The notes beneath the pieces are model-generated. The model was given only the letters and a program-made list of their open reading frames with translations. It searched no databases and was not told the origin of the DNA. The translations under genes and the position numbers were made by a program. 64,000 nt of DNA from Rhizobium sp. NXC14 (lineage in GTDB: Bacteria; Pseudomonadota; Alphaproteobacteria; Rhizobiales; Rhizobiaceae): positions 709,016-773,015 of the forward strand of contig NZ_CP021032.1 of NCBI RefSeq assembly GCF_002117485.1, given 5' to 3'. Position 1 is the first letter of the stretch; each line of letters begins with the position of its first letter. Below are positions 7,265-42,740 of the stretch, one piece after another.

Positions 7265-9049
7265 TTAAGCCGGAAGCTGAAAGAACCAATTGGCGAAAAG
7301 GACGATTGCCAGGCCGCCTACAAGTGCGAGATAGGGCAGCATGCCGGCTTTCCTGACGCCGAGATCCTGGCCGATGAGGCCGAGATCCTCCATCGCGCCT
7401 GCCGGGAACTTGCCGCCGTCGCGGACATAGTGGCGATAGGCGAAGACCGGCAGGATCAGGGCGGCGAAGATGAAGCCGACCCAGAGCGCATTGGAGTAAC
7501 CCCAGACCTTGGCGCCGGCGCCGAGGAAGAGCGCGTTGACAAAGGCGAGCACGGTGTTGAGGCCGATCAGCCAGCTCGGCGCCTTCCAAGGGCGTTCGAT
7601 ATGGCCGGAATCTATCCGGTGGATCCAGCCGGAATTCAAGTTCAGGAAGTTGAAGATGATGTAGCCGACATTCGAGACGGCAAGCACGAAGAAATAGCCG
7701 CCGGCATCCGAAGCGATCGCCAGGAGGAAGAGGTTAAAGGCGAAGTCGGTCCACATGGCCCGCGTCGGGGCTCCGTGCTCGTTGGCATGGTCGAGATATT
7801 TCGGCAGCCAGCCGTCCTTCGAGCCCTGGTAGAGCGTGCGCGAGGAACCGGCCATCGCCGTCATGATGGCGAGGAAGAGCGCCAAGATCATGAGGACGAC
7901 GAGCAATTGGGTGATGACCCGGCCCGCGCCGATCAGGCCGCCGAGCGCTTCGGCAACGCCCGTGCCGTCGACGATGCCCGGGGCGAGCATACCGGCATGG
8001 CCGAGAACGCCCTGGAAGGCGAAGGGTACCAGGAAGAAGAACAGGCAGCAGGCAAGGCCGGAATAGAAGATCGCCTTGAATGTGTCGGTCTTCGGGTTCT
8101 TCAGTTCCCGGGTGTAGCAGACCGCCGTCTCGAAGCCGTAGGTCGACCAGGCGGCGATGTAGAGACCCCCGAGGAAGAGCGTCCAGCCGCCGTTGCTCCA
8201 GGTGCCGTCGGAGGCAGTATAGGCGGCCGTCGGCGGCAACAGGCCGGTGACGTTGGCGGCGACGACCTGGCCGCTGATGATCGGGTAGAGGCCGATGATC
8301 AGCAGCGGCACCAGCACGATGATCGCCAGCCACTTCTGCACGCTTGCGGTTTCCGAGATGCCGCGATGCTGGATCGCGAAGATGATCAGCATCAGGATGC
8401 CGCCGATGAAGAAGGTGGCGTTGATGTTGGCGGTGGCGAGGTATGGAATGCTGAAGCTTGCGAGCGACCAACTGCGGATCGCCGGCGTAAGCGCCGCGAC
8501 GCCGTCGGCGCCGAGCAGCGCCTTGACGGCATCATCAGGCGTCGTGCCGGCATGGGCTGCAATATATTCGGCGACGCGGGGGCTGTCGGCCGCAACGGAA
8601 GCGGCATGCGCGGCGATCCAGTCGAGGACCATTTGCGAATCGGCTGCGGGAATCGGGAAAAATGCATTGAGAATATAACCGGCGGCGATGGCGCAGCCGA
8701 GCGAAAGCACCGGCGACCAGGCAAACCAGTTGCACCAGACCGACAGGGGCGCGATGAATTTTGAATAGCGCAGCCAGGCGGTGGCGCCGTAGACGGAGGC
8801 TCCGCCGGATTTGTTGCCGAACATGCCGGCGATCTCGGCATAGGTGAAGGATTGCAGGAAACCTATCACCATCGAGATGATCCAGACGACGAAGGCGAGC
8901 TTGCCCGTCGTGCCTGCGATGCCGCCAATGGAGAAGAGAACGAGAGGCGGCACGCCCGCAGCCACCCAGAATGCGCCCTTCCAGTCCAGTGCGCGTATAA
9001 GCTTACCTTCGGTGCCGGATGCAATTCCGGCCTCCACAATATCTGTCAT
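7265..9049 (-). CDS. APC-family amino acid/amine permease
   Basis: A 594-residue inner-membrane transporter of the amino acid-polyamine-organocation superfamily. About twelve hydrophobic helices are visible, the first carrying a Gly-rich segment (SIGGIAGTTGKLAFVVW) like helix 1 of the family, and a YAEIAGMFGNKSGGASVYGATAWLR stretch corresponding to helices 2-3. A large extracytoplasmic loop of about 100 residues lies after helix 4. It is divergent from the Tdm-type gene (start 9299) with a shared 249-bp control region, so uptake of TMAO, a methylated amine or a related quaternary amine is the likely role. That substrate is inferred from position only. Confidence 0.85.
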   Translation of the reverse strand: MTDIVEAGIASGTEGKLIRALDWKGAFWVAAGVPPLVLFSIGGIAGTTGKLAFVVWIISMVIGFLQSFTYAEIAGMFGNKSGGASVYGATAWLRYSKFIAPLSVWCNWFAWSPVLSLGCAIAAGYILNAFFPIPAADSQMVLDWIAAHAASVAADSPRVAEYIAAHAGTTPDDAVKALLGADGVAALTPAIRSWSLASFSIPYLATANINATFFIGGILMLIIFAIQHRGISETASVQKWLAIIVLVPLLIIGLYPIISGQVVAANVTGLLPPTAAYTASDGTWSNGGWTLFLGGLYIAAWSTYGFETAVCYTRELKNPKTDTFKAIFYSGLACCLFFFLVPFAFQGVLGHAGMLAPGIVDGTGVAEALGGLIGAGRVITQLLVVLMILALFLAIMTAMAGSSRTLYQGSKDGWLPKYLDHANEHGAPTRAMWTDFAFNLFLLAIASDAGGYFFVLAVSNVGYIIFNFLNLNSGWIHRIDSGHIERPWKAPSWLIGLNTVLAFVNALFLGAGAKVWGYSNALWVGFIFAALILPVFAYRHYVRDGGKFPAGAMEDLGLIGQDLGVRKAGMLPYLALVGGLAIVLFANWFFQLPA

Positions 9050-9078
9050 CGGTGAAATTCCCCATTCGATTGTTCCGG

Positions 9079-9125
9079 ACGTATCTCTGTACGTCTCCCT
9101 GAACGTGTCTCCCTGACCGTCTCAA
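9079..9125. repeat. Degenerate tandem repeat in the permease/tdm control region
   Basis: Roughly three imperfect copies of a 12-14-nt unit (consensus ACGT-TCTCCCTGA) occur in tandem just upstream of the permease start, in the intergenic region shared with the divergent Tdm-type gene. The phasing is irregular. They could be binding sites or slippage products. Confidence 0.45.
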
Positions 9126-9298
9126 GCCCGCTCGGATGATTTTGGTGATCCGCGCTCCCGACGGACCCTCCGAGTCTGAACTCTTGATGCATAGTGAAGA
9201 TATTTTCTTTTTAGTCAACATCACTTTACTTTCCACAGGCATTTTGTAACCTGTATGGGTGTATGCCGAAGGGCATGCCGATCGCCCAAGAGGGTAGA

Positions 9299-11668
9299 AT
9301 GCGAGAACTTTATCCTGTCATGTCGGGCCCCCGAACGGTCGTTCCGAGCCTCGTCCATTATCCCGGTAATCCCGCCCTGCCGGAGGGCATGGAACGTTAC
9401 CGGGCAAAGGGTGGCGGATCGGTCGTCGTGCGCGTGGAGGTGGGGGACCGCGTGAGCGTCATCGACAGCGAAGGCGGGCAGATCTGCGAACTCTCCTTCC
9501 TTGACGAAAAAGGCCGCTTCCAGGCAGCCGGTCTCGGAACGCCATTCAGCAATTCAGCCGAGGGTTTGAAGGCCATTCTTCAGGCGGAGGATGAGAGTGC
9601 TGCCCGCACGCGCGCGGCACTTCAACGGCGCGGGGCCGATCTCGCAGCCGCCGGAGCGCTCCGCATCTTCGGAGCAGGATCGACCCCGGGCAGCCCGGCA
9701 GAGTTCACGATTGCCATGAAGGGTCTGCTGATCGTTGCGGCACCCGCCAGCGCCATGTCGCCAGAGGCGCAGGATACGGCGACGCCGATTGAGATCCGGA
9801 TCAAGCGCAGCCTGCTCATTCGCGACTATGCCTCCGCCCTGCCGGAACCGGCGGCCGATCCGATCGAGGACATCCGCATCCGGGCGGCAAGCGCAGCCGC
9901 TTATTTCGTGCGCGCCGGCGAATTCATTCAGATCATCGACGTCTATGGGCGCCAGTGTACCGATTTCCAGGCCTTTGCCGCCCGCAAGGTCGACAAGGGG
10001 CTCGATCTTGCGCTCGATTCGACCGTCACCCGCACCCTGCTCGGCCGCAGCTATCCCACGCCCGGCCTGCCGTCCAAGGCCTTCGACCGTGACTTCGAGC
10101 CGCTGGTCGAGGTCGTCCAGGATACCGTCGGCCGCCACGACGCTTTCGCGACCGCCTGCAATTCGCGCTATTACGACGACATGGGTTATCCCGGCCACGT
10201 CAACTGCACGGACAACTTCAACGCGGCGCTGGCGCCTTACGGCATCGCCGGGCGCAAGGGCTGGGAAGCGCTGAACTATTTCTACAACACCAATATCGAT
10301 CCCAACAACCAGCTCTATCTCGACGAGCCCTGGTCGCGTCCCGGCGATTACGTGCTGATGCGGGCGCTGACCGATCTCGTCTGCGTCTCATCGTCCTGCC
10401 CTGACGATATCGATGCGGCGAACGGCTGGGATCCGACGGATATCCACGTCCGTACCTTTTCCGGAAAAGAGAAATTCTCACGAGCGGTAGCCTATCGCAT
10501 GACCCCAGATGCCGAAGCCGAACTGACGCGCGAAACAGCCTTCCACCCACGCCTGTCGGCATTGACGCGAGATTTTACGGAATATCGCGGCTACTGGTTG
10601 CCGAACCGCTTCTCGTCCGAAGGTCCGGTCGAGGAATACTGGGCCTGCCGCGAGCGCGCCGCCGTCATCGATCTCTCGCCCTTGCGGAAGTTCGAAGTGA
10701 CGGGCCCGGACGCCGAGGAACTGCTGCAATACTGCCTGACGCGCGATGTTCGCAAACTCTCGACCGGCCAGGTCGTCTATTCCGCGATGTGCTACGAAAA
10801 TGGCGGCATGATCGATGACGGCACGCTCTTCAGGCTCGGCGACAAGAACTTCCGCTGGATCGGCGGCGATGATTTCAGCGGCATATGGCTGCGTCAGCAA
10901 GCCGAGAAGAAGGGCTTCAAGGCCTGGGTTCGATCATCGACCGACCAATTGCACAATATCGCGCTGCAAGGCCCGAGGAGTCGCGATATCCTGAAGGAGA
11001 TCATCTGGACGGCGCCGCGCCAGCCTGCGATCGGCGAGCTCGAATGGTTCCGCTTCGCGGTCGGCCGCATCGGCGGCTTCGAGGGCGCCCCGGTCGTGGT
11101 CTCGCGCACCGGCTATACCGGCGAACTCGGCTACGAGATCTTTTGTCATCCGAAGGATGCGCTGACGGTGTTCGACGCCGTCTGGGAGGCAGGCCAACCG
11201 CACGGGCTGAAGCCGATGGGGCTGGAAGCGCTCGACATGGTCCGCATCGAGGCGGGCCTGATATTTGCCCACCACGAATTCACCGACCAGACGGACCCCT
11301 TCGAAGCCGGCATCGGCTTCACCGTGCCGCTGAAATCCAAGCAGGACGATTTCATCGGCCGCGAAGCGCTGATCCGGCGCAAGGAGCATCCGCGCCATCT
11401 GCTCGTTGGCCTTGATATCAAGGCCAACGAGGCGGTCGGCCATGGTGACTGCATCCATATCGGCCGGGCCCAGATCGGCGTCGTCACCAGCGCCACGCGC
11501 TCGCCTGTTCTCGGCAAGACGATCGCGCTCGCCCGTATCGACGTGATGCATGCAAGCCCGGGCACCGAGGTCGAGATCGGCAAGCTCGACGGCCACCAGA
11601 AGCGCCTGCCGGCGACGATCGTGCCGCTTTCGCATTACGATCCGCAGAAGGCGCGCCCGCGATCGTAA
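9299..11668 (+). CDS. tdm: Trimethylamine N-oxide demethylase-type protein (DUF1989-GcvT fusion)
   Basis: A 789-residue two-domain protein. Residues about 190-385 form a DUF1989 domain with the metal-type cysteines in ATACNSRYY, GHVNCTDNF and SSSCPDDID; residues about 425-789 form a GcvT-like tetrahydrofolate-binding domain (for example ALQGPRSRDIL and SRTGYTGELGYEIF). This architecture is that of bacterial TMAO demethylase, which splits TMAO to dimethylamine and formaldehyde and can pass the carbon to tetrahydrofolate. The ATG at 9299 has AAGAGGG just upstream; ATG codons at 9263 and 9275 are alternatives. tmm and dmm genes lie 3-10 kb away, which supports the call. A general DUF1989/aminomethyltransferase role cannot be excluded. 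Confidence 0.78.
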   Translation: MRELYPVMSGPRTVVPSLVHYPGNPALPEGMERYRAKGGGSVVVRVEVGDRVSVIDSEGGQICELSFLDEKGRFQAAGLGTPFSNSAEGLKAILQAEDESAARTRAALQRRGADLAAAGALRIFGAGSTPGSPAEFTIAMKGLLIVAAPASAMSPEAQDTATPIEIRIKRSLLIRDYASALPEPAADPIEDIRIRAASAAAYFVRAGEFIQIIDVYGRQCTDFQAFAARKVDKGLDLALDSTVTRTLLGRSYPTPGLPSKAFDRDFEPLVEVVQDTVGRHDAFATACNSRYYDDMGYPGHVNCTDNFNAALAPYGIAGRKGWEALNYFYNTNIDPNNQLYLDEPWSRPGDYVLMRALTDLVCVSSSCPDDIDAANGWDPTDIHVRTFSGKEKFSRAVAYRMTPDAEAELTRETAFHPRLSALTRDFTEYRGYWLPNRFSSEGPVEEYWACRERAAVIDLSPLRKFEVTGPDAEELLQYCLTRDVRKLSTGQVVYSAMCYENGGMIDDGTLFRLGDKNFRWIGGDDFSGIWLRQQAEKKGFKAWVRSSTDQLHNIALQGPRSRDILKEIIWTAPRQPAIGELEWFRFAVGRIGGFEGAPVVVSRTGYTGELGYEIFCHPKDALTVFDAVWEAGQPHGLKPMGLEALDMVRIEAGLIFAHHEFTDQTDPFEAGIGFTVPLKSKQDDFIGREALIRRKEHPRHLLVGLDIKANEAVGHGDCIHIGRAQIGVVTSATRSPVLGKTIALARIDVMHASPGTEVEIGKLDGHQKRLPATIVPLSHYDPQKARPRS

Positions 11669-11683
11669 CCCACTTCGTGTTCA

Positions 11684-11715
11684 GGAGACGACGATCGGTT
11701 CCGTCCGTCGTCTCC
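11684..11715. terminator. Hairpin between tdm and minE, possible bidirectional terminator
   Basis: A perfect 10-bp stem (GGAGACGACG with CGTCGTCTCC) with a 12-nt loop lies in the 59-bp gap between the converging tdm and minE genes. There is no good T run on either side, so termination is inferred from position and stem strength. Confidence 0.5.
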
Positions 11716-11727
11716 CGGATCTTGCCC

Positions 11728-11988
11728 TCAAGCGGCCTGTACGGCTGCGTTCAGCGGGATTTCCACGTCGATCTCAAGAGTGGAGACAAACTCGTTGCGG
11801 TCGATCGTCACCTGCACCTTGTCGTGGTCGAGCTCGACATGCTTTGCGATTACCGCAAGGATTTCCTCGCGCAGCAGCGAAACAAGGTCCGATCCTGCCG
11901 ATGAGCGTTCGTGTGCAAGGAGCACCTGCAAGCGTTCGCGGGCGGCGGGTGCCGTTCTCTGCTTGTTGAATAGACGGAAAATGTTCAT
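11728..11988 (-). CDS. minE: Cell division topological specificity factor MinE
   Basis: An 86-residue protein that binds MinD, stimulates its ATPase and drives MinCD oscillation, so that the division inhibitor is kept away from midcell. It begins MNIFRLF, the membrane-binding amphipathic start, followed by the anti-MinCD helix region with [15 protein letters not shown] and a C-terminal topological domain ending in LEIDVEIPL. Length is normal for the family. Its ATG overlaps the minD stop by four bases, and it is the last gene of minCDE. Confidence 0.96.
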
Positions 11989-12800
11989 GCTGCCCTCCGT
12001 CCGAAGATCTTGCCGAAAAGATTGCGCTTTTCCTCGGGGATCGTGATCGGCAAGGTTTCGCCGGCGAGCCGGCGAGCCGCATCGAAATAAGCCATCGCAG
12101 CCGCGCTGCGGCTTTCCGCCAGCGTCACCGGCGCACCGATGTTGGAGGCGCGCAGCACATCCATGCTCTCCGGCACGATGCCGAGGAGCGGGATGGAGAG
12201 GATCTCCAGAACGTCGTCGACCTTCAGCATGTCGCCGCGCTCAGCGCGGTTGGCGTCGTAGCGGGTGAGCAGCAGATGCTTTTCCATCCGCTCGCCGCGT
12301 TCGGCCTTGGCGGTCTTGGCATCGAGCAGGCCGATGATCCGATCGGAATCGCGCACCGACGAGACTTCCGGATTGGTGACGACGACGGCTACGTCGGCAT
12401 GGCGCATGGCAAGTGTCGCGCCACGCTCGATCCCGGCGGGGCTGTCGCAGATGATCCAGTCGAAGTAGCGCTTCAGATCGTTGATGACGCGCTCGACGCC
12501 CTCGGCTGTCAGATTGTCTTTGTCCCGGGTTTGGGAGGCCGGCAGCAGGAACAGCGTCTCCAACCGCTTGTCGCGGATCAGCGCCTGGGTGAGCTTGGCG
12601 TCGCCCTGGATGACGTTGATCAGGTCGTAGACGACCCTGCGTTCGGCGCCCATCACGAGGTCGAGATTGCGCAAGCCGACGTCGAAATCGACGACGACGA
12701 CCTTTTCATTGCGTTGCGCCAGCGCCGCTCCCAATGCGGCGGTCGAGGTCGTCTTTCCGACCCCGCCCTTGCCTGACGTGACGACGATCACTTTCCCCAT
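11985..12800 (-). CDS. minD: Septum site-determining ATPase MinD
   Basis: A 271-residue membrane-associated ATPase of the ParA/MinD class. It has the deviant Walker [10 protein letters not shown] at residues 11-19, switch-type [10 protein letters not shown], and ICDSPAGIE for Walker B. The last residues ([11 protein letters not shown]) form the amphipathic membrane-targeting helix. With ATP bound it recruits MinC to the membrane; MinE releases it. The start has GGAGAGAGAA immediately upstream. It lies 31 bp after minC and overlaps minE. Confidence 0.97.
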
Positions 12801-37741: not shown

Positions 37742-38146
37742 ATGAAAGAAGAACCGCACGCAGTGGATGTTCATGTCGGAAAGACGATCCGCATACAGCG
37801 TCTGCTGCGCAAAGTTTCGCAGACGGAATTGGGCGATCGTGTCGGCGTAACGTTTCAGCAGATCCAGAAATACGAAAAAGGCTCCAACCGCGTTTCCGCC
37901 AGCATGCTGGTTGAAATCGCCGGCGCGCTGAACGTCGACGTCAGGACGTTCTTCGACGACCTCTCAACGCCCGAGACGGCTAACGACAACCCCGCTCCAA
38001 GCGAGGAATTCGTCATTTCGCGCGAGGGTGTGCTTCTGAATGCGGCGTTCTTCTCGATCAAAAACGAAGCTCTTCGCAAGAAGATCCTGAAGCTTGTTCA
38101 GGCAATCGCCCACACCGAACAGGTCGAGGGTGAAGCGGCCGAATAG
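37742..38146 (+). CDS. Small XRE-family regulator, PraR-like
   Basis: A 134-residue DNA-binding protein. Residues about 10-65 form a Cro/C1 helix-turn-helix with the stretch LGDRVGVTFQQIQKYEKGSNRVSASML, close to the PraR/SinR-like regulators found in many copies in rhizobia. The remainder is a short helical tail (REGVLLNAAFFSIKNEALRKKILKLVQAIA). AGGAGGG precedes the ATG at 37742; an upstream in-frame start at 37670 would run through the hairpin region. It converges with the 88-residue protein gene. Confidence 0.82.
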   Translation: MKEEPHAVDVHVGKTIRIQRLLRKVSQTELGDRVGVTFQQIQKYEKGSNRVSASMLVEIAGALNVDVRTFFDDLSTPETANDNPAPSEEFVISREGVLLNAAFFSIKNEALRKKILKLVQAIAHTEQVEGEAAE

Positions 38147-38187: not shown

Positions 38188-38454
38188 TCAATGGCGATCG
38201 ATCAGGATTAGATTCTCGCTAGCGTCCTTCATTGCGATCTTGGCCTTGCTGCCGAGCAGTTTCTCGAGGTTGACGTCAAGTTCCCTGTCCGGATCTATGC
38301 CGTCCCAATCGATTACGACCTGCAGCAGTGCCATGTTCGTCAGGTGCATCAGATTACGCAGCTGAAGCTTTTCAGCCTCCTCCTTGGCTGCCGACAGCAG
38401 CCGGAAGATCCTTGCGTATTCGCTGCCTGTACCTTCGTTACGTTGTTCAAACAT
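38188..38454 (-). CDS. Hypothetical 88-residue protein downstream of tfuA
   Basis: I do not recognise the family. It is a small soluble, acidic protein with a helical N-terminal part (YARIFRLLSAAKEEAEKLQLRNLMHLTNMALLQVV) and no membrane segment or cysteine. It follows tfuA by 65 bp on the same strand, so it may be an accessory of the YcaO-TfuA locus. AAAGGGGCGGGAA before the ATG and a codon use like its neighbours support it as real. A function cannot be given. Confidence 0.6.
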   Translation of the reverse strand: MFEQRNEGTGSEYARIFRLLSAAKEEAEKLQLRNLMHLTNMALLQVVIDWDGIDPDRELDVNLEKLLGSKAKIAMKDASENLILIDRH

Positions 38455-38519
38455 TGTTCCCGCCCCTTTGGCCGTGAAGCCTCAGATTCCATCACCCCTA
38501 CATCATCTAGCCGAGACCG

Positions 38520-39263
38520 TTATTCAAGCGTTACAGGAGTCACGTTGCGGGTGACTTCGGCGTGCAAAAGCTCCCAATGCGAGGTTGCGGCAAAGCGCCA
38601 GTCACGGTTGACGGGTGCGAATTGCTCGCGGTGCAGCCACTCCAGCACTAGCCGCGCGTCGTCATGTTTGCGTTCGACCCTATTCTTGCGGAGAGCGGCG
38701 AGGAGGAGATCACGACGCGGCTTGCGGAAATGGCACTCGTCTACCACGCGCGCATAGGTGCGCTCGGAGAAATGCAGGAAGCGGCCGGCGAGCAGTAGTT
38801 TCTTGCGCTCGGCCGTGGAGATCTCGCCGCGGGCATGAAGCGCATCAACCGTGGGCTCGAAATCGACCCAGGGTACGGAAAGCGGGAGCCAGCCAAGCGC
38901 CTGCGGCGCATGCACAAGTGCGACGGCCTCATCGTCGAGCAGCCGACCGGACTCGTAATCCTCGAAGATCGAGCCGAGCCCGACCATGCCGAACGGAGCG
39001 CATTCTGCAGCCCGCAATGCGCCCATGCTGGCGCCGCCGGCTACGGCGACATCATGTTCGAGCGCGTAGAGAATTTCCTTGTGCCAGACCGATGGCAGCT
39101 CGCCGAAATAGCCGTCGACAAGGCCGATCGCGGTGGCGCCGTCTTCTACTGCCTTCAGGATGTCGCCGCGGGCGGCAGGCGGGCGGAAATCAATGCAGGG
39201 AGACATGTTTCTCGCTGCGGCAAGACCGCCACCAAGGCTCGGACCGACGAACAGAACCTTCAT
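38520..39263 (-). CDS. tfuA: TfuA-like protein
   Basis: A 247-residue protein of the TfuA family, named from the trifolitoxin locus of rhizobia. TfuA proteins act with YcaO enzymes, and in peptide-backbone thioamidation are thought to supply or activate sulphur. The family core is visible: KVLFVGPSLGG, IDFRPPAARGDILKAVEDGATAIGLVDGYFG, HKEILYALEHDVAVAGGASMGALRAAE and FGMVGLGSIFEDYESGRL. Its start codon overlaps the ycaO stop (ATGA), so the two are translated together. Confidence 0.9.
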   Translation of the reverse strand: MKVLFVGPSLGGGLAAARNMSPCIDFRPPAARGDILKAVEDGATAIGLVDGYFGELPSVWHKEILYALEHDVAVAGGASMGALRAAECAPFGMVGLGSIFEDYESGRLLDDEAVALVHAPQALGWLPLSVPWVDFEPTVDALHARGEISTAERKKLLLAGRFLHFSERTYARVVDECHFRKPRRDLLLAALRKNRVERKHDDARLVLEWLHREQFAPVNRDWRFAATSHWELLHAEVTRNVTPVTLE

Positions 39264-40522
39264 GACTGGGCTCCTCTCATGGTGTTGACGGCGCGCAGGC
39301 CGAGCTGGACGTACTGGCCTGATATATCGACCTCCAGGCCCGGCACGATCACCCTGACGACCGAGACTGGCAAAGTCGGATGGGCAAAGGGCACGGCGAC
39401 GATCTGTTCGATCCCGCTCGCCACCAGCCGGTCGGCTATGTGGCGGATGGTCTCCTGGATCGTCGCCGCACGGCGATGGCGGTTCTGAAAGGCGCGCATC
39501 CGGCCGTCGCTCTCGCAGAGTTCGACCAGCTGCTGCATAGCCGCACTCCGATCGAGCCGCTGGTAGATGCGCGGCGAGAAATCGTCGCGGCTGCCGGCGA
39601 TCGCCGTCAGCCGGCTCTGGGCCGCTTCGGTGATGGCGCGCAGTGCGGCGCGCACAGGATCGGGATGGCAGCCGCAGCCCCCGCAGACATGTGACCAGCG
39701 CGCATCGGCGCGGTCGGAAAGATTGCCAGGCATGATGACGGCCAGAAAAGCCGGAACGCCGATATCTGTGGTCATGTCGAGCAGCAGCAGCCGCATGCCG
39801 GCGCGTGTGATCCGGTCGGTCATGACGTCGATGACCGCATCGCCGAAGGAGGCGGGGTCGATGCGGCTCTCCTTCAGGCGCTGTGGTGATTTCAACTGGG
39901 TCAGAGCCCAGGCGTCGCGCTCGACCAGCTCGCAAAGTCCGTGCAGGACCGCTTCGGACGGCGCATTGCCGGAGGCAAGCCCATCGCTCGATTGCTCGAA
40001 GCCCGGCGGCCGCTCGCCGCGATGGTCGAGGCCGACAAGCCACCAGGGGACGAAGACGCTGCTGCCGGACAGAATGTCGAGGCCGGAGCACCAGGGGATG
40101 GGGTCACCGCCGATTTCATCGGGCGCGCATCGTGCGACGTTGTCGAGATCGATCATGGCGGCGCCTTCCGCCCGCATGCTCTCCACCGTCGCCTGCGTCA
40201 GGTCGGCGGGCGGAATTTCCGCGATCCGCGTCTCGATCGCCTCCATGGCGGCCGAGGCCATGGCGGCATCATTGTCGATGCCTTTGCCCTGGAAGACCGA
40301 AAGCGTGTGGCTGTTCGGCCTCGTCGCGAAGGCGACGGGGATATTCAGCACGTCGAGAGCGGTCAGCAGGCCGACGCGCGTGATGCCGAATTCGCGCAGA
40401 TGCGGCCTGATGGCCGCAAGTGTCTGCGCCGGCGTGATTGCACGGTCGTGATAGTCGCTGACGCCAGCCGATGATCGTCTGAGATCATCGGCTAGCGTTT
40501 CAAGATCGGCGAAGGCGGACAT
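39260..40522 (-). CDS. YcaO-domain ATP-dependent backbone-modifying enzyme
   Basis: A 420-residue YcaO protein. YcaO enzymes use ATP to activate peptide amide bonds and form azolines, amidines or thioamides. Typical parts are AMASAAMEAIETR and AVLHGLCELVERDAWAL (nucleotide and metal ligands) and the C-terminal FAHPTLPVSVVRVIVPGLE. It lacks a fused E1-like or C-protein domain and lacks a proline-rich C-terminus, which fits the TfuA-partnered class more than the azoline-forming class. AAGGGG precedes the ATG. A 47-codon ORF ends 15 bp upstream. Confidence 0.88.
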   Translation of the reverse strand: MSAFADLETLADDLRRSSAGVSDYHDRAITPAQTLAAIRPHLREFGITRVGLLTALDVLNIPVAFATRPNSHTLSVFQGKGIDNDAAMASAAMEAIETRIAEIPPADLTQATVESMRAEGAAMIDLDNVARCAPDEIGGDPIPWCSGLDILSGSSVFVPWWLVGLDHRGERPPGFEQSSDGLASGNAPSEAVLHGLCELVERDAWALTQLKSPQRLKESRIDPASFGDAVIDVMTDRITRAGMRLLLLDMTTDIGVPAFLAVIMPGNLSDRADARWSHVCGGCGCHPDPVRAALRAITEAAQSRLTAIAGSRDDFSPRIYQRLDRSAAMQQLVELCESDGRMRAFQNRHRRAATIQETIRHIADRLVASGIEQIVAVPFAHPTLPVSVVRVIVPGLEVDISGQYVQLGLRAVNTMRGAQS

Positions 40523-40537
40523 ACCGATCTCGCCCCT

Positions 40538-40681
40538 TTAGCGGAACTTCAGCGCATGGGTCAGGTTTTCGAGAGCATTTGCCGTAACATTGAGTTCGTC
40601 CTGCTTCATCGCAGCCTTGGCTGCGGCCGAGAAGCGCGGCTGGGAAGGCATTGCTGCATGGGTTTCAACAGTGGTTTTCAT
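40538..40681 (-). CDS. 47-residue peptide, candidate YcaO-TfuA substrate
   Basis: A short reading frame directly upstream of ycaO. It starts ATG at 40681 with GGAGA six bases upstream and ends TAA at 40538, so 15 bp separate it from the ycaO start; the AAGGGG ribosome site of ycaO begins at its stop codon. The product starts MKTTVETHAAMPSQPRFSAA, has a Lys/Ala-rich middle, and ends ANALENLTHALKFR. It has no Cys and no membrane segment. Size, charge and place match a precursor peptide of a ribosomally made, modified product. The leader/core border cannot be read. A translation-coupling leader ORF is the alternative. Confidence 0.62.
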   Translation of the reverse strand: MKTTVETHAAMPSQPRFSAAAKAAMKQDELNVTANALENLTHALKFR

Positions 40682-40784
40682 TGTCCATCTCCAATGGGAT
40701 AGGCAGCCGGCTGCCGTTAACCATTGCAGAGGAACATTGTCTGCGTCATTTAACCGTTACAGGCTTCGTTAAAAGGCCATGCAA

Positions 40785-42740
40785 TTAGGGAAGTCCGGCC
40801 AGTTGGAGGCCATGAATCAGCGTTTCCGTATAGCGGGGATCGCGGTCGGGAACGAAATGACGGATGTCCTCGCTGCGGAAATCCGGGAAATTTTCCAGGA
40901 CGACGTTAGCGTATTTGCCGGCCTTTTTCATATCGCCCGCCATGGCGTGGGCGGCTGCCAGCAGTCGCGCGGTCGCCTGTTTCGACTGCACCGGCTCAAG
41001 CGCCTCGATCGCCTGATTATATTCGCCGCGGTCGAAGTGGATGCCGCCACGATTCCAGTAGTAATAATCCGGCGGCAGCGGATTGAGCTTGAATGCCGCA
41101 TTGTTCAGATCCAGCGCCTTGTCAAAGTCGCCGTAGTGGCAAAGCGCGTCGGCGTAATCGGCGAGGATGTCGGCGTCGTTGGGATTGAGATCCTGGGCCT
41201 GCTGGAAATAGTCCAGGCTTTCGTCGAAACGGCGGCGGTACAGCGCCACGAAGCCGAGCTCGCGATAGGCCCGGCCGCTGTTCGGGTCGGACTGTTGCGC
41301 CAGCCGGGCGGCGCCATTCGCCTCGTCGAGCAGTTCGGTGTCCTGCATGCCGCGGATCAGCCATTCCATGCCGAGCGCACGCGACACGCCGGCATGGGCA
41401 GCCGAGAAATTCTCATAACGATTGAGCGAGGATCTGAACCATTTGCGCGCCTGGCGCAGATGCTGCAGATCGGTCTGGGCGATCAGCCGCTTGCCTTCGA
41501 GATAGAGACGGTAGGCGGATGGCGGCGCCTCGCCGATCGGCATCGCCAGCTCGTGGCGTTCGACGGTGTCGGCGAGCGAGGAGACGATGCGCCGTGTCAG
41601 ATGCGCGAAGGATTCGCTGATCTTCTGCATGACCAGCGGCAGTTCCAGAGCCCAGATCACCTCCGATGTCGTCGTCCGCGTCAGACGGCAGGTCGCATAG
41701 ACATCCTCCTCGCGGCCCTGGATGGTGACGTAAACCGCGTAATCGAAGCTGAGGTCGAGCGCACGGGGCACAGCTCGGGCCGGATCGACCGAACGGCTGA
41801 GGATTTCGAGGCTCGTATGGGCTGCGATCACCTTGAAGCCGCGCTGCTGGCTGAGGCCGATGGTCACGTCCTCAAGAAGGGCTCTGCCGACGCGCTCCAT
41901 CAGCGGATCGGTGAAAATGCTTTCCGGCGGCAGGATGATGATCCGCGGCTGGCCGAGCAGATCGGCGAAAGCGCCGGGCGCTGGCGATGGACGTTCGGCG
42001 GCCGCGGGCTGAGCTGCCGGGATCAGGCCGAGTTCGCGGGCAAGCGCGGTGGTGCTTTCCTCCGGTTCGGTTTCGAACTCGTCCTTCAGCTGGCTCTTGC
42101 ACTTCAGATAGGACTGCCGGGCCGCGGCCGGGTCGTTCATCCTGACATAAATGCGCATCAGGGCCCGATAGGCCGTCTCGCTGGCGGGGTCGAGCTCCAG
42201 CAGGCGACGGGCAAAGGCCACCTGCTCTTCGTCCGATCTGTCGTCAGCAGTTTCGACCAGCCGCGTCAGATGGGCGGCGCGCAGTTCATCGATACGCTGG
42301 CGTTCGAAGGTCAGCCAGTCCTCGGCGCCCTGCGTCGGCGACTTGGCGCCTTCTAGCAATTCGCCATTCAGAATGTCGCCGTCTTCGGCTGCGAGCGGCG
42401 CTTTCTGTTTGAGTATATGGATATCGACTTCCCAGCCGTCGGCAAGGCCAATATGGGTTCGGGTCGCTTTCAGCAGCGGCGGAAGGCCGGCGGGAATGCT
42501 TTGCTCGATGCGCGCCAGCAACTGGCGCAAACTGCCTGCGCGTTTTTCCGGCGCTTCCGATTGCCAGAGCTGCCGCCTGACGGTTTCCCGGTCGAGTTCG
42601 AGATCGGCTTCGGCGGCGAGCATGGCGAAAAGAAAATAAGACTTCTCCGGCAAAGGGAGTTCCCTCCCCGCTGCCAGCAATCGCGGTCTTCCGAGCAGGC
42701 AGAGCCTGTTCGTCGACATCTGTTCGGATGTCCGTTGCAT
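40785..42740 (-). CDS. BTAD/SARP-like regulator with TPR repeats
   Basis: A 651-residue protein (from the ATG at 42740; 42719 is an alternative). Residues about 10-95 resemble the winged-helix start of SARP-type activators (LCLLGRPRLLAAGRELPLPEKSYFLFAMLA); residues about 100-250 are a bacterial transcriptional activation domain (FARRLLELDPASETAYRALMRIYVRMNDPAAARQSYLKC). A middle alpha/beta domain follows (PRIIILPPESIFTDPLMERVG). The C-terminal half carries several TPR repeats (AYRELGFVALYRRRFDESLDYFQQAQDLNPNDADI). It precedes the 47-residue peptide gene on the same strand and is the likely local activator of the YcaO locus. Confidence 0.75.
   Translation of the reverse strand: MQRTSEQMSTNRLCLLGRPRLLAAGRELPLPEKSYFLFAMLAAEADLELDRETVRRQLWQSEAPEKRAGSLRQLLARIEQSIPAGLPPLLKATRTHIGLADGWEVDIHILKQKAPLAAEDGDILNGELLEGAKSPTQGAEDWLTFERQRIDELRAAHLTRLVETADDRSDEEQVAFARRLLELDPASETAYRALMRIYVRMNDPAAARQSYLKCKSQLKDEFETEPEESTTALARELGLIPAAQPAAAERPSPAPGAFADLLGQPRIIILPPESIFTDPLMERVGRALLEDVTIGLSQQRGFKVIAAHTSLEILSRSVDPARAVPRALDLSFDYAVYVTIQGREEDVYATCRLTRTTTSEVIWALELPLVMQKISESFAHLTRRIVSSLADTVERHELAMPIGEAPPSAYRLYLEGKRLIAQTDLQHLRQARKWFRSSLNRYENFSAAHAGVSRALGMEWLIRGMQDTELLDEANGAARLAQQSDPNSGRAYRELGFVALYRRRFDESLDYFQQAQDLNPNDADILADYADALCHYGDFDKALDLNNAAFKLNPLPPDYYYWNRGGIHFDRGEYNQAIEALEPVQSKQATARLLAAAHAMAGDMKKAGKYANVVLENFPDFRSEDIRHFVPDRDPRYTETLIHGLQLAGLP

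Follow-up and report, generated by a model that had tools for sequence, protein, structure and literature searches.

We analysed a 64,000-nucleotide (nt) stretch of DNA from Rhizobium sp. NXC14 (NZ_CP021032.1; the whole stretch is called the window below), and within it the YcaO-TfuA locus at 38188..42740. Reading the open reading frames (ORFs) of the window, we found that the minus strand carries, in order, a gene for a SARP/BTAD-TPR regulator, a 47-codon ORF, ycaO, tfuA and orf88 (Table 1). The ycaO and tfuA genes overlap by 4 nt, and 15 nt separate the end of the 47-codon ORF from ycaO. An earlier note on this DNA, which proposed that the locus makes a small modified peptide, had described the same five ORFs on a single strand with ycaO and tfuA overlapping, and the ORF reading confirmed them at their positions. 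Its gene set was incomplete: a gene for an XRE-family regulator lies directly past orf88 and belongs to the unit. Because this gene is kept in 67/67 related loci (L002-L068), we regard the cassette as comprising six genes, one more than the note's coordinates cover. We describe here the cassette and, above all, a block made of the end of the regulator gene and the neighbouring peptide gene, which occurs in two forms.

Table 1. Positions of the cassette genes and associated features in the window (aa, amino acids)
Feature	Position	Strand	Basis
SARP/BTAD-TPR regulator, 644 aa; winged helix and BTAD, middle domain, C-terminal TPRs	40785..42719	-	Pfam, AfsR profile match, model
Dimorphic block: regulator codons ~520-644, gap and peptide gene	40541..41160	-	divergence profiles, TP25/TP5 pair
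Candidate SARP-type operator, GTAACGG-TTAA-ATGACGC, two 7-mers in 11-bp register	40743..40760	-	pattern search
Putative precursor peptide, 47 aa	40538..40681	-	conservation, codon pattern, co-occurrence
YcaO, 420 aa	39260..40522	-	Pfam; nearest solved relative MJ1094, 6pe3
TfuA, 247 aa	38520..39263	-	Pfam; nearest solved relative 6xp8
orf88, all-helical protein, 88 aa	38188..38454	-	present in 67/67 of L002-L068; three-helix model
XRE-family regulator, 134 aa, convergent with orf88	37742..38146	+	HTH_3, 49 bits; start from annotated orthologue RHE_RS26290

Distribution of the cassette

Among the related loci, of which the best 80 were kept, the order regulator, peptide, ycaO, tfuA, orf88 is preserved in 67 (L002-L068). 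Together with the window these form what we call the type-A set (n=68); L001 and L082-L094 stand outside these counts, and L070-L081 were excluded as distant relatives. The 47-codon ORF sits between the regulator gene and ycaO in 68/68 type-A loci. An Aureimonas locus (L069) has the same gene order without a recognisable orf88, L070 has a match to neither the regulator nor the peptide, and the small ORFs read in the L070-L081 group belong to other families. Unlike the six-gene unit, the outer neighbours (nadBC, an amidohydrolase gene, IclR) change from clade to clade. Upstream of the regulator gene, strains carry a cytosine deaminase gene (L119, L121), IS110 and then a cytosine deaminase gene (L120), or nadC (L122), with the six-gene unit constant.

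A profile of the peptide matched 91 of 148 Rhizobium genomes, and a type-A TfuA (62-100% identity) was found in the same 91, the starts of the two genes lying 1.4-2.1 kb apart every time; the remaining 57 genomes had neither. Some TfuA of any type occurs in 142/148. Similar DNA was present in 121 plasmid records (120 from Rhizobium, one from Sinorhizobium), 113 of which cover at least 80% of the query. An annotated relative is found on p42e of R. etli CFN42, and RefSeq lists its 47-aa ORF as a 'hypothetical protein'; neither the 47-aa nor the 88-aa protein matched a Pfam or NCBIfam family above cut-off.

An ABC-2 type exporter adjoins the cassette in four loci (L043, at 8808-12694; L044; L049; L058). 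Since it lies beside these four only, we rejected dedicated export as a fixed part of the system. We also rejected a defence system: PADLOC gave generic HTH matches for the XRE protein and none for the other four proteins submitted, the peptide not being among them.

The 47-aa peptide and its likely modification

Conservation of the small ORF had been set beforehand as the check that could refute the proposed peptide, and the ORF stands beside ycaO-tfuA in 68/68 loci and 91/91 genomes. Differences among 40 distinct 47-codon sequences fall on the three codon positions as 4527/5703/14105. The median ratio of nonsynonymous to synonymous divergence (dN/dS) is 0.159, with 736 of 780 pairs retained under the limits on dS. 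Residues 1-15 are variable (0.41), and codons 16-47 are strongly purified (0.073). The latter value resembles those of ycaO (0.102), tfuA (0.14) and orf88 (0.076), measured in 15 of 42 loci, those gap-free in all four genes. The codon pattern, the dN/dS and the 91/91 co-occurrence led us to reject a chance ORF. Conserved parts of the peptide are R-F/L-S-A-A-A and a C-terminus of the form N-A/G-...-H-A-L-K/R-F-R; two of 58 homologous peptides (P0057, P0058) have a deviating C-terminus, possibly through frameshifts in short contigs. In the allele of the window, QDELNVTANALENLTHALK is the C-terminal tryptic peptide; its computed mass without modification is 2093.075, and one thioamide would raise this to 2109.053.

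The conservation and position of the ORF support the note's suggestion of a locus for a ribosomally synthesized and post-translationally modified peptide (RiPP) with the 47-aa ORF as putative precursor, and this support is strong: the ORF would very probably be a substrate reserved for the neighbouring YcaO and TfuA. The target of the enzymes might instead be a cellular protein, like McrA in the archaeal case, leaving the 47-aa ORF to act as a regulatory micropeptide. The strong conservation and a unit without export genes would suit such a role, and McrA and uL16 provide precedents in the covered portions of two reports (PMC5589413, PMC13063428), but the ORF is exclusive to the cassette in all 91 genomes, ends just ahead of ycaO, and has an unrelated small ORF as its counterpart in the same slot of a sister (type-B) cassette, described below; we regard a cellular substrate as very improbable.

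Both enzymes score well above the Pfam cut-offs (YcaO 230.7 bits, cut-off 25.7; TfuA 129.3 bits, cut-off 30). Among NCBIfam models, the one for McrA-thioamidation YcaO scores higher (200.9 bits, cut-off 365) than that for SagD (119.2 bits, cut-off 219), and the two proteins fall below both equivalog cut-offs for the McrA-glycine thioamidation pair (200.9/365 and 171.4/235.2 bits). Residues G79-K80-G81, E94, E97, S184-G185-N186, E198, E201-R202-D203, E299 and R304 of YcaO are invariant in 69 loci, and we take them to belong to the ATP/Mg site. Among 74 distinct sequences of the peptide, no Cys, Ser or Thr is conserved in the C-terminal part, which makes an azoline across the whole family unlikely. 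In the CFN42 orthologue, 14 features are annotated over 13.4 kb, none of them an E1-like gene or nitroreductase-type dehydrogenase, and Pfam recognised neither family among 18 flanking ORFs of six other loci, some of these ORFs being matchless; one flanking ORF of L069 is an FAD-dependent oxidoreductase (DAO).

Because TfuA is present, the core has no conserved Cys, Ser or Thr, and the CFN42 region has no E1-like or dehydrogenase neighbours, backbone thioamidation is favoured over azoline formation. Archaeal TfuA is reported, in the portions covered, to supply sulfide from thiocarboxylated ThiS (PMC8153245, PMC13063428); three genes of the ThiS family occur in this genome, all outside the window's contig C3. 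Judged by what is known of the families, a thioamide is the likeliest modification, and YcaO would probably install one or more of them in the conserved C-terminal part of the peptide with sulfide delivered by TfuA. That the product carries azolines, as in trifolitoxin, or a macroamidine instead is improbable in our view. YcaO chemistry is diverse, and in the covered portion of PMC9670871 tfuA is described as a trifolitoxin gene, trifolitoxin being an azol(in)e peptide, but the composition of the core, the CFN42 neighbourhood and the ranking of the McrA-thioamidation model above SagD, with both below cut-off, all speak against it.

The regulator and the dimorphic block

Pfam recognised a BTAD domain (48.8 bits, cut-off 22.1) and TPRs in the regulator, and no nucleotide-binding domain in its middle part. 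Between residue 4 and residues 230-255, the family profile aligns with AfsR structures (E ~1e-7). The model begins with a winged-helix-like pattern, followed by BTAD helices and a middle domain, and its C-terminal TPR helices start at about residue 400 (pLDDT 80.6, pTM 0.50). Because the matches shown by Foldseek for the whole regulator were mostly TPR-type proteins, the SARP assignment rests on Pfam, the model and the AfsR profile match.

According to the covered portions of two reports, the binding sites of SARPs are direct repeats in 11-bp register, each unit a heptamer plus a 4-nt spacer (PMC10936776, PMC5930380). A candidate repeat of this type lies before the peptide gene (Table 1); its pattern GTMACG-N5-ATRACGC has one match in the window, against 0.01 expected, and two in the 6.7-Mb genome. 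The second genomic match (L097, 1501-1518; C1:2722080-2722097) falls within an ORF (1020-1898) that by eye encodes an AraC-type regulator, and is therefore probably not a promoter. The repeat had been spotted by eye. The first pattern tried, TNACG-N6-TNACG, for which the shuffles kept single-base composition only, occurs in 61/73 loci (60/68 type-A plus L069) and is absent from eight Neorhizobium-side loci (L059-L066) and from L073, L076, L078 and L079. The pattern was widened once, after the Neorhizobium sequences had been seen, and T[AC]ACG-N6-T[AG]AC[AG] is found in the regulator-peptide gap of 68/68 loci, with a spacer that varies between clades. The 200-nt stretch ahead of the regulator gene has the narrower pattern in 0/67 loci. 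A promoter and terminator scan gave matches at or below the shuffled expectation and identified no -10 element. It is quite likely, from the position and form of the repeat, that the SARP regulator would turn on the peptide gene, ycaO, tfuA and orf88 through this candidate operator.

Residue 45 of the peptide is K in 27 of the 68 type-A loci and R in 41. All 41 R45 loci have Ser at regulator residue 527, and all 27 K45 loci have Cys, Leu or Val there, so that the match is 68/68. In a set of 42 loci from the R. etli/leguminosarum side (the window, L002-L041 and L051), six regulator columns split K45 from R45, all within residues 527-636, and two of them (527 and 633) still split all 68 loci. 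In the same 42 loci, no splitting column was found in the regulator before residue 527 or among the variable columns of YcaO (173), TfuA (114) and orf88 (30). Both traits undergo nine changes on the ycaO tree, where the independent supported pairs are concordant in 7/7 cases (p 0.016); the tree of regulator residues 1-500 gives 6/6 (p 0.031).

Close pairs of Rhizobium loci revealed a sharply bounded block that comprises regulator codons ~520-644, the gap and the peptide gene to its stop codon. We compared 88 close pairs in which both flanks differed by at most 9%. In the 32 pairs with discordant alleles, the block differs by a median of 22.5% (15.4-24.9) between flanks at 4.0% and 6.5%, and in the 56 same-allele pairs by 6.9% (2.4-11.4). 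A case in point is R. johnstonii, with complete plasmids from strains TP25 and TP5: from ycaO to the XRE gene these have 11/2822 differences (0.4%) and in the first part of the regulator gene 51/1617, and the block has 134/621 (21.6%). R. leguminosarum 22B, whose annotated peptide is the same as that of TP25, has 10/2822 differences from TP5, and the TfuA, orf88 and XRE protein accessions are identical in TP25, TP5 and 22B. TP25 and 22B are K45/Cys527, and TP5 and strain 23B are R45/Ser527. As TP25 and TP5 show, both alleles coexist in one named species with the same TfuA.

We consider a thioamide-type peptide that is sensed by its own SARP-TPR regulator to be the best reading overall, and give it about an even chance. 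Its decisive step rests on population-genetic evidence, the covariation of the peptide with the regulator end: the C-terminal TPR end may, with the balance evenly struck, recognise the C-terminus of its own peptide, and the product would then control its own production. The coexistence of K45 and R45 versions within species is what would be expected of a self/non-self signal. More tentatively, the system could be pherotype-like: the TPR end of the SARP would have the neighbouring, thioamidated peptide as its ligand, and K45/non-Ser527 and R45/Ser527 specificity groups, segregating within species, would pass from strain to strain as a ligand-receptor cassette of ~620 bp while the modification enzymes are shared.

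The locus might also make an ordinary thioamidated RiPP, for example an antagonistic one, with the dimorphism residing in the peptide alone and the regulator end carried along by recombination. The genes are adjacent, most of the K/R match is lost to shared ancestry on the regulator-end tree, where only two changes occur, and antirhizobial azol(in)e peptides are known from rhizobia in the covered part of PMC9670871. What such a peptide does not readily explain is that the block halts at the peptide stop codon yet reaches ~375-410 nt into the regulator gene, where several pairs share its inner boundary. Nor would it predict the pattern in L023/L051 and L039, where a K-type regulator end is combined with peptide DNA that groups with R45 relatives and residue 45 is nevertheless K; small gene conversion could be another source of this pattern, and codon choice does not speak for an independent origin, since codon 45 is AAA in these loci but also in L004, which belongs to the main K group. 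The conserved core and the absence of an exporter from the six conserved genes, with exporters beside four loci only, likewise fit poorly with an antagonistic peptide, and we find this alternative rather doubtful.

Several observations weigh against a peptide sensed by its own regulator. Physical linkage accounts for part or much of the K/R match: the regulator end and the peptide gene are adjacent and travel together, which is why the trees of these linked parts have few changes (two on the regulator-end tree and four on the peptide tree, the latter with 3/3 supported pairs), and neither result is significant. The two trees are not in full agreement, and nearest-exemplar labels for regulator end and peptide agree in 38/42 loci and disagree in L023, L037, L039 and L051. 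Residue 527 was chosen after inspection of the data, and the K/R allele labels of the 88 pairs were read from the block itself. No comparable block was seen in 27 close pairs of other clades (flanks at most 16% different). For the type-B cassette, 31 pair profiles from 22 loci (L076 and L108 being the same sequence) likewise show no dimorphic block in regulator end and peptide; the block thus does not characterise cassettes of this kind in general. Finally, the six conserved genes include no exporter or importer.

The sister cassette, accessory proteins and known systems

The type-B cassette lies in the same genome (L095, 4864-9661; contig C1, ~3415363-3420160) and contains an XRE gene, a TPR regulator gene, a 70-aa peptide of an unrelated family (MAKAVIIGIPGEEGLW...SGHVDG), ycaO, tfuA and a gene for an 84-aa protein. 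Its regulator has 28% identity to the type-A regulator, with TPRs recognised by Pfam and the BTAD cut-off not reached, and its 84-aa protein resembles orf88 (hhalign probability 77). The family of the 70-aa precursor matches 138/148 Rhizobium genomes. Relatives of this precursor end in tandem repeats (L071, 4416-4790, three AFSGH.Y; L073, 4560-4799; L078, 4452-4730, four FSGKL), which suggests several putative core copies per precursor.

The predicted fold of orf88 consists of three helices (pLDDT 81.6, pTM 0.70) and has no match to solved folds at E<=0.001. RiPP recognition elements (RREs) are winged-helix folds, and we rejected orf88 as an RRE-type recognition domain because its model is all-helical and has no fold match at that threshold. 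We found no orf88 relative in the Aureimonas locus. The orf88 and XRE proteins are probably accessory and regulatory partners.

Systems of this general kind are known, and two claims of the earlier note are not supported. It had put the locus forward as a candidate undescribed system, but Malit et al. 2021 (PMC8120280) had already counted more than 500 TfuA-related clusters in Rhizobium, and PMC10434180 reports thioamitide-related clans from plasmids of this genus; these families and clans very probably contain this locus. The precursor is not assigned in the portions of both sources covered; the supplements were outside the scope, so it may be listed in them. The words 'BTAD' and 'SARP' are absent from the main text of PMC8120280, and in the open-licence literature we found no report joining SARP, BTAD and YcaO. 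The note had also inferred a minimal and different type, but precursor, YcaO and TfuA together (varA, varY and varT) are already reported to suffice for thiovarsolin B in the covered part of PMC6511847. The present cassette shares these three components with the thiovarsolin type and differs in its precursor, in having the SARP-TPR regulator, the XRE protein and orf88 as fixed members, and in the matching of precursor to regulator. With the archaeal pair for McrA thioglycine it shares overlapping ycaO-tfuA genes (PMC5589413, in the portion covered) and the closest NCBIfam models, but it stays below both equivalog cut-offs and has a dedicated small peptide in place of McrA. Like the large AfsR-type SARPs covered in part of PMC10936776, the regulator combines a SARP domain with C-terminal TPRs and is associated with direct repeats in 11-bp register. 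It differs from them in having no middle nucleotide-binding domain by Pfam and in a TPR end that varies with the adjacent peptide gene.

What is new here is the block in which regulator end and peptide are inherited together, and it changes the functional reading; the earlier note had seen neither this block nor the XRE gene nor the direct repeat of SARP type. In Gram-positive HTH-TPR receptor systems (Rap-Phr, PlcR-PapR) and in the ComC-ComD pherotypes, the peptide gene lies beside the receptor gene and alleles are co-inherited. The present case would differ from these in its SARP DNA-binding domain, a putatively YcaO-modified peptide, a Gram-negative host and the lack of a known import. With the precursor, a candidate operator and a natural two-allele system named, the proposal can be tested with ordinary strains: TP25 and TP5 share the annotated TfuA, orf88 and XRE protein and differ in the peptide allele. 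We know of no YcaO-TfuA product with a signalling role, and if the proposal is true, this would be the first. If the regulator does read the peptide, thioamidated RiPPs would gain a role in signalling and SARP-TPR proteins a class of ligand.

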